Source of the DNA: Symbiodinium natans
Lineage: Eukaryota; Sar; Dinophyceae; Suessiales; Symbiodiniaceae
Direction of reading: 5' to 3'
NCBI GenBank assembly: GCA_905221605.1
Contig: CAJNDS010000001.1
Span: forward strand, 1,404,525-1,468,524
DNA length: 64,000 nt
The notes under the pieces are model-generated. The model saw nothing but the letters and a program-made list of their open reading frames with translations, was not told where the DNA came from and did not search any database. Each line of letters starts with the position of its first letter. Position 1 is the first letter of the stretch. This document shows positions 794-55,286 of this stretch, in pieces. Position numbers and translations under genes: made by a program.

Positions 794-870
794 GCCCTCT
801 ACGAGGGCAACATTGTCATGTTTGCGGTCGTGAAGCCGCACTACTGGGCGTTGGAGCTGGTTGACTTCAG
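794..870 (+). CDS. aspartic protease exon 1 of window
   Basis: Acceptor CCCCCCCCAG before 794. Reads ALYEGNIVMFAVV then KPHYWALELVDF, matching the pepsin strand before the second aspartate. The next exon is in phase only if the intron starts with GA at 871. A GT at 876 would break the phase. Confidence 0.8.
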
Positions 871-54800: not shown

Positions 54801-55286
54801 TTGTCAGCCCTAAAATCTAGGGTTTAGGGGGGTTTAGGGTTTAGGGTTTAGGGTTTAGGGTTTAGGGTTTAGGGTTTAGGGTTTAGGGTTTAGGGTTTAG
54901 GGTTTAGGGTTTAGGGTTTAGGGACACCCCAAGATCCGAAGCCCTAACCGAAGCTTTAAGTCCTGAAAAATAGTGCGTGCTTTGGGTTTGGGGTGGGCCG
55001 CGCATAGGCCCTCTGACCAGGCAAGTTGAAACCTGCATACATATAGAGGCCTTCATAATTAGAATATTTTTGTTTGGGGGGATATTTTTCCCTAAACCCT
55101 AAACCCTAAACCCTAAACCTTAAACCCTAAACCCTAAACCCTAAACCCTAAACCCTAAACCCTAAACCCTAAACCCTAAACCCTAAACCCAATTCCGATA
55201 TTTCGACCCCTGTATTGCATCGGCAGGAGCTCACCAAGAAACTACGGGCGGCAGCGACCATGCCACACTTAGCGGACACGCCGCTT
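45843..55286 (+). CDS. SAM-dependent methyltransferase domain protein, 14 placed exons, two frame breaks
   Basis: Joined exons give an unrecognised helical N-terminal part (GTRIMEFVYISRLKIWQQ, ECFSEHVRLLLTVSLRRM, DGLEDPEGPHRLKSWLTDAT) and then a class I methyltransferase fold. Motif I is DAVVADFGAGSG, then ARWLNDTG, DGSPDINL, SADLGRPL, FDWSLCLEVADHIP (motif IV region), GLIITWARPG and a LRAAATMPHL tail. These blocks match the FDWSLCLEV-E-HIP ... LSWA ... family of small-molecule/protein methyltransferases common in algae. The substrate is unknown. One base is missing after GSGH (near 50364) and one before DGSPDI (near 51032). All other joins keep phase, several with GC or GA donors. The C-terminal end after 55286 and the true start are not placed. 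Confidence 0.75.
45893..45981 (+). repeat. 89-bp intron made of a CCCTAAA array with 14-bp flanking direct repeat
   Basis: AGGTCCGGCTTGCT stands at 45891-45904 and again at 45980-45993. Between them lie about ten heptamer units. Splicing at the first AG|GT and the second AG| restores the uninterrupted reading frame. Confidence 0.7.
45982..46043 (+). CDS. methyltransferase gene exon
   Basis: Reads SGLLVQGQEEVAASLPFLEE plus one base. The GC donor (GCTACT) joins in phase to GTRIMEF. CAG at 45998-46000 is an alternative acceptor. Confidence 0.6.
46160..46255. mobile_element. element family III, copy 4
   Basis: AAATATAGATCTCCCAAATA ... TTTTCGCAAACCCCCACATG. Confidence 0.55.
46660..46790. repeat. 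CCCTATAAA/CCCTGAGAA nonamer array
   Basis: Alternating nonamers make an 18-bp higher-order unit repeated four or five times. The peptide-like reading in one frame (ENPINPENPINP) is a by-product. Confidence 0.95.
46807..46884 (+). CDS. methyltransferase gene exon
   Basis: Acceptor AGATCCAG. Reads TRIMEFVYISRLKIWQQLDQ then HLAEP plus one base. The GA donor (GATCAG) fits the phase. Confidence 0.6.
47729..47793 (+). CDS. methyltransferase gene exon
   Basis: Reads SRASSLLSAHVHITTAVSSQ then R. The acceptor CTGGAG and the first bases of the exon are repeated at 47661-47680 on the other side of a short array. GC donor. Confidence 0.55.
47825..47930. repeat. CCCTAAA array
   Basis: Before the exon at 47957; includes CCCTAAAA octamers. 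Confidence 0.95.
47957..48031 (+). CDS. methyltransferase gene exon
   Basis: Acceptor ACCCTCAG. Reads ECFSEHVRLLLTVSLRRMKA then LATSQ. GT donor. Clear amphipathic helix. Confidence 0.65.
48405..48431 (+). CDS. methyltransferase gene microexon
   Basis: Acceptor CCTTCCACAG. Reads VKQLWHASQ. A GA donor (GACGGT) keeps the next exon open. The GT four bases on leads to a stop. Confidence 0.55.
48545..48710. repeat. CCCCAAA then CCCTAAA array
   Basis: About 15 homogeneous CCCCAAA units followed by CCCTAAA units, before the exon at 48719. Confidence 0.95.
48719..48842 (+). CDS. methyltransferase gene exon
   Basis: Acceptor AACCCCAG. Reads DGLEDPEGPHRLKSWLTDAT, GLLDADLRTLKTVLQTWMPG and S plus two bases. 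GT donor. Confidence 0.65.
49745..49794 (+). CDS. methyltransferase gene exon
   Basis: Reads TMEALRRDTFEEYQQL plus one base. The donor GTTTAC gives a phase that joins to GILRILPVDAVVADFG. Confidence 0.6.
50304..50389 (+). CDS. methyltransferase exon, motif I, with apparent 1-nt deletion
   Basis: Acceptor CTCCTGCAG. Reads ILRILPVDAVVADFGAGSGH, then the expected YARWLNDT appears in another frame. One base is missing at about 50363-50365. GC donor. Confidence 0.7.
51009..51054 (+). CDS. methyltransferase exon, with apparent 1-nt deletion
   Basis: Reads LVTALA, then DGSPDINL one base out of frame. GCGTCGAC would be expected as GCG-TTC-GAC. GC donor. Confidence 0.55.
51485..51543 (+). CDS. methyltransferase exon
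   Basis: Reads VTRGSVASADLGRPLSLWR plus two bases. GT donor followed by an array. Phase fits FDWSLCLEV. Confidence 0.65.
51548..51640. repeat. TTTAGGG array
   Basis: Directly after the methyltransferase exon 51485-51543. Confidence 0.95.
51776..51878. mobile_element. hairpin element family II, copy 3
   Basis: TTTGGGATGTTCCCCCTGAT ... GCATAAGGCGGAGCTTAATA; the right arm is diverged. Confidence 0.65.
52325..52400 (+). CDS. methyltransferase exon, motif IV region
   Basis: Reads FDWSLCLEVADHIPTDLTPT then FLKNL. The most diagnostic block of the domain. A GA donor (GATCAG) is likely; a GC donor nine bases later is an alternative. Confidence 0.8.
52493..52537. repeat. poly-G tract of 45 nt
   Basis: The longest homopolymer in the window; the true length is doubtful in any read technology. 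Confidence 0.9.
52902..52953 (+). CDS. methyltransferase exon
   Basis: Reads RHTERGLIITWARPGLQ plus one base. The GC donor at 52954 fits the next exon. Reading on to the GT at 52988 would add GLGTANPPLCL but break the phase. Confidence 0.7.
53230..53340. mobile_element. AT-containing element related to 17285-17340
   Basis: CTTACAAGGAAGAATCCGTT ... (TA)n ... TTCTTAAGCAAATAGCAG. The start and end resemble CTTACAAGGAGGAATCTGTT ... TTCTTGAGAAAACAGTAG at 17285-17340. Confidence 0.45.
53450..53535. repeat. CCCAAAA then CCCTAAA array
   Basis: Two homogeneous blocks. Confidence 0.95.
53869..53970. mobile_element. hairpin element family II, copy 4
   Basis: GGGGATGTTCCCCCTTATAC ... CCTATTAAGGCCTGTCCGTA; right arm partly lost. 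Confidence 0.65.
54111..54272. mobile_element. hairpin element family VI, copy 3
   Basis: CTTGGAGGTTCATGGTACTT ... AAGTACCACGAACCTCCAG; contains an internal duplicated segment (TAAGTACAGTTATAGT). Confidence 0.8.
54299..54400. repeat. CCCTTAAA octamer array flanked by exon-derived direct repeats
   Basis: Octamer variant; a 22-nt exon segment stands on both sides (54277-54298 and 54418-54439). Confidence 0.85.
54409..54515 (+). CDS. methyltransferase exon
   Basis: Acceptor TCTCTACAG. Reads AQHQASNARLKAQRLTQEQV then LALIREHTGLVHLDE. GC donor. A 22-nt stretch of this exon is repeated upstream at 54277-54298. Confidence 0.7.
54550..54735. repeat. TTTAGGG array
   Basis: About 24 units in three blocks separated by an AGGG insertion, i.e. 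a higher-order repeat. Confidence 0.95.
54830..54925. repeat. TTTAGGG array
   Basis: About 13 perfect units. Confidence 0.95.
55092..55192. repeat. CCCTAAA array
   Basis: About 14 units before the exon at 55227. Confidence 0.95.
55227..55286 (+). CDS. methyltransferase exon, C-terminal region
   Basis: Acceptor ATCGGCAG. Reads ELTKKLRAAATMPHLADTPL, the usual C-terminal helix and strand of this family. GC donor. The last exon was not identified. Confidence 0.7.

Follow-up and report, generated by a model that had tools for sequence, protein, structure and literature searches.

Telomere-type heptamer arrays are oriented around exons in three neighbouring genes of the dinoflagellate Symbiodinium natans

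Telomeric repeats inside introns are commonly viewed as scars of break repair. The interstitial telomeric sequences (ITS) of mammals, tandem arrays of telomere type at internal positions, introns among them, have been proposed to arise by insertion at double-strand breaks; in the available text of that work their intronic share (31% in human) is described as compatible with random insertion, and an effect of intronic telomeric repeats on splicing is named as worth testing (PMC7215372). The heptamer AAACCCT/TTTAGGG is very abundant in Eimeria (PMC4287421, PMC9131526), and TTTAGGG is the reported telomere unit of dinoflagellates (PMC11453091). Here, we analyse arrays of this heptamer in a 64,000-nt window of the Symbiodinium natans assembly (C1:1404525-1468524; 759,417,921 bases in 2543 contigs), where they occupy a large part of the introns of three plus-strand genes, encoding an aspartyl protease, the large subunit of U2AF (U2AF65) and a methyltransferase. 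As tandem arrays of the telomere unit inside a contig, with the unit taken from dinoflagellates generally, they are ITS themselves. However, they are far denser than the mammalian ones, crowd towards exons and are polar, with CCCTAAA (C-type) arrays favoured before exons and TTTAGGG (G-type) arrays after them. Such an orientation relative to splice sites is not described in the available parts of the Eimeria reports, and a literature search, mostly at the level of abstracts and of journals open without subscription, returned no report of it for telomeric repeats.

Exons were set by spliced alignment of homologous proteins (P0129 for the protease, P0001 for U2AF65 and P0114 for the methyltransferase), a procedure blind to the arrays. 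The aligner permitted solely GC, GT and GA donors with AG acceptors, types that are on record for dinoflagellates in the accessible text of two reports (PMC11453091, PMC7557087). Eleven protease exons were aligned, of which the last three were dropped as weak and eight kept, and the mapped set comprises 62 exons and 59 introns. Arrays were called as 14-mers with at most three mismatches to two heptamer units. In the first 57,600 bases they occupy 22,417 (39%), with almost none beyond, and they account for 43–49% of mapped-intron bases; their share outside mapped exons is 23% in 8632–14100 and 39% in 42700–46500.

An earlier note on this DNA had scored by hand the nearest array on each side of the exons (C:G 37:14 before, G:C 35:17 after), and this polarity is borne out with the homology-based exons. 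Of the 57 acceptors that have an array in their intron, 41 have a C-type and 16 a G-type array nearest, and of the 57 such donors 38 have a G-type and 19 a C-type array nearest (37:20 under a slightly different edge rule). When 75 nt at each end are considered, 48 of the 59 introns show the predicted orientation, 8 the opposite and 3 are neutral (pooled z 5.12). The observed bias, which is real within the window, was not reached in 4000 permutations or in 386 rotations of the array labels. By gene, z amounts to 2.7 for the protease (7 introns), 2.7 for U2AF65 (34) and 3.9 for the methyltransferase (18); for U2AF65 alone the nearest-array test is weaker, its value being reached by 74 of 3001 permutations. 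U2AF65 exons placed with the more distant P0003 give C 16:G 12 before and G 17:C 11 after, and the 23 of 35 exons that are identical under the P0001 and P0003 alignments give 14:7 and 14:8.

The strength of the bias changes with the array definition. Two exact units give 36:17 before and 31:22 after exons, and three exact units only 26:20 on both sides, a weakening that would be in keeping with an artefact of exon placement or array definition. The slight bias obtained in the window with exons of a codon-only gene finder (36/63 within 100 nt) can be read in the same way, and it indicates that ab initio exons dilute the signal; a splice-matrix finder gave 53/79 and 40/56 there. Such an artefact is nevertheless hardly credible, because the homology exons were placed blind to the arrays, the false plus-strand exons of the ab initio finder show no bias (24/54 and 35/75), and exact runs of at least 21 nt within 60 nt of an exon stand 31:13 in the predicted sense.

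Arrays are concentrated close to the splice sites. They account for 69%, 80% and 71% of the bases at 25–50, 50–75 and 75–100 nt after donors and for 65%, 76% and 68% in the corresponding intervals before acceptors, compared with about 38% in mid-intron; at 50–75 nt from splice sites, approximately four fifths of the bases lie in arrays. As arrays constitute most of the intron sequence 25–100 nt from exons, the spliceosome must handle intron ends that are largely made of them. The predicted orientation decays with distance from the exon, from 31/38 (<15 nt), 28/37 (15–30 nt) and 18/30 (30–60 nt) to 16/34 (60–120 nt), 29/50 (120–200 nt) and 65/128 (>200 nt), i.e. 77/105 within 60 nt versus 110/212 beyond (Fisher p 0.0003). 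At the acceptors of exons 24201, 47957 and 48719 arrays come within 0–3 nt of the splice site, a proximity that recognition of the 3′ splice site must at least tolerate.

This polarity results from an excess of the favoured orientation. G-type arrays 25–100 nt after donors are 2.56-fold enriched over mid-intron (95% interval 1.92–3.29) and C-type arrays 25–100 nt before acceptors 2.85-fold (2.08–3.7), whereas the opposite orientation stays near the mid-intron background (1.26, 0.82–1.83, after donors; 0.85, 0.46–1.31, before acceptors). The favoured orientation has thus been gained or retained, and removal of the other cannot by itself account for the pattern. For this reason we regard as very improbable an account in which insertion is unoriented and selection only purges G-type arrays before acceptors, where TTTAG|G could act as a cryptic acceptor, and C-type arrays after donors. 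Such purging would agree with the larger distance of G arrays from acceptors (median 49.5 nt versus 15 nt for C arrays; p 0.003) and with the G that follows the acceptor AG, as in TTTAG|GG, in 58 of 59 mapped introns (33 of 34 in U2AF65), but there is hardly any depletion of AG ahead of acceptors. Close to exons, favoured arrays exceed those of the other orientation in length, with means of 101 nt and 59 nt (p 0.002); arrays farther in average 45 nt. No difference in array age was seen within 60 nt of exons, where identity to the perfect repeat is alike (0.898 favoured versus 0.902 other; p 0.51); among near-exon arrays of at least 35 nt the favoured ones are slightly less identical (0.896 versus 0.914; p 0.047). 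Transposable elements in mammalian introns likewise show an orientation bias that grows towards exons; however, near exons they are under-represented, shorter and fewer on the acceptor than on the donor side, as far as the available text of that study goes (PMC3088655), whereas the window arrays are over-represented there, longer and symmetric at both ends.

The outward polarity is specific to exons. Among exon-free islands of at least 60 nt bounded by arrays within these genes, 101 of 234 ends point outward (C on the left, G on the right), which is slightly inward rather than neutral (p 0.04), compared with 83 of 120 ends for islands that hold an exon (Fisher p 4e-6). Tight hugging of the exon, considered as a further exon-specific trait, was rejected, since exon and other islands of at least 60 nt are equally tight (median 109.5 versus 107 nt); randomly placed pseudo-exons in U2AF65 have more slack (median 109.5 versus 62), partly from falling in large gaps. 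The minus-strand ‘false’ exons of the window follow the prediction in 44 of 59 cases, but they are probably shadows of true exons and hence no clean control, because C-exon-G reads alike on both strands. For the same reason gene strand cannot separate a cause at the RNA level from one at the DNA level, and it was dropped as a discriminator. Outside protein-coding exons, 22 tRNA genes in 20 stretches (among the 39 matches listed) were compared with 15 control stretches about 10 kb away, mostly on the same contigs; the share of array bases in tRNA flanks is 0.027, versus 0.103 in the controls and 0.65–0.80 at 25–75 nt from exons, although some of these contigs may belong to other organisms in the assembly. 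The few arrays beside the 22 tRNA genes show no orientation bias (C3:G3 on the left and C3:G3 on the right).

These controls bear on a DNA-level account, in which breaks in introns would be trimmed back towards exons, which have to survive, and the ends extended outward by telomerase, with G to the right of an exon and C to its left, before being rejoined with filler DNA, so that array orientation records the repair. The pattern is identical under reverse complementation with mirror-like profiles on the two sides (r 0.92), the favoured arrays are longer, and telomerase-linked insertion of telomeric repeats at double-strand breaks has been proposed for mammals in the accessible part of that work (PMC7215372), all of which would fit. 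Were it so, the polarity would record how repeats arise beside constrained DNA. However, a single such event would be expected to cap an intron on both sides, and the two ends are uncorrelated (24 G…C introns versus 25.3 expected from the marginals; rho 0.05). Tight G-to-C junctions with gaps of at most 3 nt are rarer than C-to-G ones (11 versus 22), and at such gaps there is no excess of the junctions that head-to-head telomere fusion would leave. The constrained tRNA genes are nearly array-free and unbiased, a weak test with so few arrays, and exon-free islands, though presumably unconstrained, lack the outward bias. Taken together, we consider this account unlikely. The independence of the intron ends also speaks against the proposal of the earlier note that the two arrays of an intron pair and loop it out, and the two sides of an exon are equally uncoupled (26 C…G exons versus 25.6 expected).

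The account that we prefer, with about even confidence, is orientation-dependent retention through splicing, and it draws on the restriction of the polarity to exons, its decay with distance and the larger size of the favoured arrays. Telomere-type heptamer arrays would have been inserted and expanded in introns and, near splice sites, preferentially kept and lengthened in the orientation that is compatible with splicing or serves it, namely UUUAGGG, with its UAGGG-type G-runs, just inside the 5′ end and the C-rich CCCUAAA just inside the 3′ end. The effect would likely be exerted at each splice site singly, with the arrays acting as intronic auxiliary sequence recognized by RNA-binding proteins and no pairing between arrays. 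In animals, G-run and UAGGG intronic splicing elements are bound by hnRNP A1 and hnRNP F/H, and C-rich ones by PCBP and hnRNP K. The favoured arrays resemble these elements by analogy, in motif class and intron side, and they show the position- and orientation-dependent presence near splice sites that characterizes intronic splicing enhancers. Position, orientation, decay, length difference, independence of the ends and absence from islands are observed for the 59 introns; selection by splicing is a fair inference from them, not a demonstration, and the arrays may be a part of splicing in these genes. If splicing does shape or use them, they would show how a genome with very many telomere-type units and a weak donor consensus keeps its exons recognizable, and would make the intronic code of dinoflagellates accessible to statistics. 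A stronger version is conceivable where donors are degenerate (GC/GA/GT) and exons some 50 nt long: (CCCUAAA)n before and (UUUAGGG)n after exons would form a polar code that brackets exons and marks intron ends, a by-product of telomere maintenance co-opted genome-wide as a splicing signal; we entertain this only tentatively.

Alternatively, the G/T-rich sequence after donors and the C-rich sequence before acceptors might seed matching repeats, through telomerase or slippage, with the arrays a by-product without function. In unmasked sequence the G-C skew ranges from 0 to +0.16 over the 200 nt that follow donors and from -0.26 to -0.15 over the 100 nt that precede acceptors, as seeding would have it, but because these flanks could be arrays in a decayed state, the skew does not count as independent support. 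ITS insertion in the horse at breaks whose bases are in register with the repeat, according to the accessible portion of the report (PMC7215372), provides a precedent, and seeding also sits well with the absence of compensation between arrays and splice-site strength, but it does not obviously predict the greater length of favoured arrays near exons. On this evidence we judge seeding unlikely.

Several results weigh against retention through splicing. Among 57 acceptors and 57 donors, 16 and 19, respectively, have the other type of array nearest, so the favoured orientation is not required. Splice-site scores are independent of array presence, and the pyrimidine content of acceptors with and without a C array does not differ significantly (p 0.09). 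Avoidance of AG is hardly apparent either, its density being 0.04–0.06 within 100 nt of acceptors compared with 0.067 at 200–400 nt, with the nearest upstream AG at a median of 15 nt from the acceptor. Arrays near acceptors hold no clear excess of branch-like variants of the CTAAC type (2.91 versus 2.34 per kb). The profiles at the 5′ and 3′ ends nearly mirror each other, a match that signals at the RNA level would produce only by chance. Finally, pooled exon ends outside the window with an array within 100 nt agree in just 33 of 53 cases (p 0.098).

Some of these data also concern the mechanism envisaged in the earlier note, whose functional reading holds as far as the bias at splice sites, its decay with distance and its absence from islands, and lacks support on donors, branch site, pairing and U2AF. 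The suggested branch-site role for C-type arrays is not backed by a clear enrichment, and a regular C-type unit yields CTAAAC, not CTAAC. Donors of the form GTTTAG, proposed to be supplied by G-type arrays, do not occur among the U2AF65 donor hexamers, and the 59 mapped introns have GC (33), GT (16) or GA (10) donors with AG acceptors. Near 31705, one of two positions named for such a donor, both alignments place the end of the U2AF65 exon at 31666, with GTCCGC; the other, 10381, is in no homology-mapped exon and is unsupported, although an ab initio run called an exon at 10349–10381. A dependence of the bias on donor class was tested and found no support. Of the range 794..55286 given in the note, U2AF65 covers just 14224–42632, and the bias extends across three genes. 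A special link to U2AF finds no support in its neighbours, in which 24 of 25 introns are biased as predicted, compared with 24 of 34 in U2AF65 (7 opposite, 3 neutral).

Heptamer arrays are not confined to the window. The whole assembly holds 1,184,385 forward and 1,185,204 reverse overlapping exact 21-mers, compared with 33 and 41 for a reversed control, and two further stretches, C2 (100 kb, of which 5000 bases are N) and C3 (50 kb in length), also consist of arrays to about 33%. Support for the polarity is weak there. With the codon-only finder and arrays within 100 nt, agreement is 22/32 on the C2 minus strand, 0/3 on the C2 plus strand and 3/6 on C3. With the splice-matrix finder and arrays within 60 nt, the C2 minus, C2 plus and C3 minus strands give 36/44, 2/5 and 9/12 at threshold 11 and 16/24, 0/2 and 3/6 at threshold 13, and a lower exon penalty gives 74/93, 47/59 and 14/21 on C2 minus at thresholds 10, 12 and 14. 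A protease paralog on C320 agrees at 3/5 ends within 100 nt and 3/4 within 60 nt, and kinesin exons at 5/7 ends (the flanks of 6 exons from the 98 matches listed were considered, 2 of the 6 without an array nearby). The out-of-window pool of 53 ends combines the codon-only counts with those of the protease paralog within 100 nt and of the kinesin exons; without C2 plus and C3 it agrees at 30 of 44 ends (p 0.023). A genome-wide pattern is therefore suggested, not established; we infer both its validity across the genome and RNA processing as its cause. Excluded from these tallies was C50, an array-free stretch of 60% GC.

The mapped genes and representative arrays are given in Table 1. The joined U2AF65 exons are 95.8% identical to P0001 over 598 amino acids (aa), 91.6% to a Symbiodinium microadriaticum model over 321 aa and 79.5% to Polarella over 561 aa. 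Named U2AF65 relatives found by protein search with joined fragments are from the dinoflagellates Polarella, Prorocentrum, Symbiodinium and Karlodinium and from Perkinsus. Eimeria, a source suggested at first by the heptamer, was discarded on the strength of the dinoflagellate matches of the U2AF protein. Scans of virus and prokaryote collections for the repeat or for U2AF yielded nothing that enters this account. Open-frame translations from other contigs (P0110–P0112) contain U2AF exons without array-type peptides alongside, as seen in translations rather than in the DNA of relatives. The joined protease exons are 76.8% identical to P0129 (151 aa), and those of the methyltransferase 83.3% to P0114 (365 aa), where the relatives P0115 and P0116 put some exons elsewhere.

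Table 1. Mapped genes and selected heptamer arrays (positions within the window)
Feature	Position	Strand	Basis or remark
Pepsin-like aspartyl protease, C-terminal half, 8 exons, array-rich introns	791..7489	+	P0129 spliced alignment, homolog search
Protease exons	791-870, 1538-1602, 2402-2463, 3508-3559, 4663-4705, 5110-5175, 6503-6530, 7431-7489	+	P0129 spliced alignment
U2AF large subunit (U2AF65), 35 exons, 34 introns, all 598 residues of relative P0001	14224..42632	+	Spliced alignment
Methyltransferase/PAN-domain gene, 19 exons found	46546..56844	+	P0114 spliced alignment, homolog search; 3′ end not resolved
C-type array before U2AF65 exon 14224-14262	13922..14158	+	Array scan, exon alignment
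G-type array after U2AF65 exon 14224-14262	14269..14337	+	Array scan
G-type array 12 nt before acceptor of exon 20399-20493 (counter-example)	20309..20385	+	Array scan
C-type array that, counting degenerate units, stops 3 nt short of exon 24201-24274 and fills almost the entire final 60 nt of the intron	24112..24188	+	
C-type array before exon 37511-37585	37386..37490	+	Array scan, exon alignment
G-type array after exon 37511-37585	37607..37676	+	Array scan
C-type array reaching acceptor of exon 47957-48031	47825..47949	+	Array scan, exon alignment
C-type array before exon 50293-50391	50198..50272	+	Array scan, exon alignment
G-type array after exon 50293-50391	50481..50574	+	Additional short G-type stretch at 50399-50411
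C-type array before exon 52904-52972	52846..52873	+	Array scan, exon alignment
G-type array after exon 52904-52972	52995..53064	+	Array scan, exon alignment

Dinoflagellate introners, in the available text of two reports (PMC7789003, PMC11453091), share with these introns a repetitive make-up and complementary sequence at the two intron ends. Self-comparison of the masked window revealed no intron family among the array-bearing introns. The U2AF65 intron 36079–36192 looks like an introner and would be the lone exception in the window; nearly its whole length is a repeated element bearing terminal inverted repeats of the CTTGGTAGC...GCTACCAAG type, with further copies at 27736–27848 and 17096–17276, and it carries no telomere arrays. 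A 108-nt repeat, 98% identical, is present at 22018–22125 and 2973–3080, in introns of two different genes. Inside a protease intron, a strong coding-like open stretch of about 78 aa without a Pfam match lies at 5909–6146, outside the mapped protease.

Elsewhere, the assembly combines array-rich and array-poor parts, or several organisms. The unlinked 100-kb C2 stretch (L133–L142) also holds a lysine/glutamate-rich gene on the minus strand. In the nearly array-free C50 stretch (L143–L147) frames exceed 1000 codons, and on C1079 a PRPF8 PROCN domain lies inside a single frame of 922 aa (512577-513794). Within the window, 57640–64000 is nearly array-free and holds long open frames, and of four that were tested two have matches to MLLE and CCCH-type zinc-finger domains, in contrast with the adjoining intron-rich genes.

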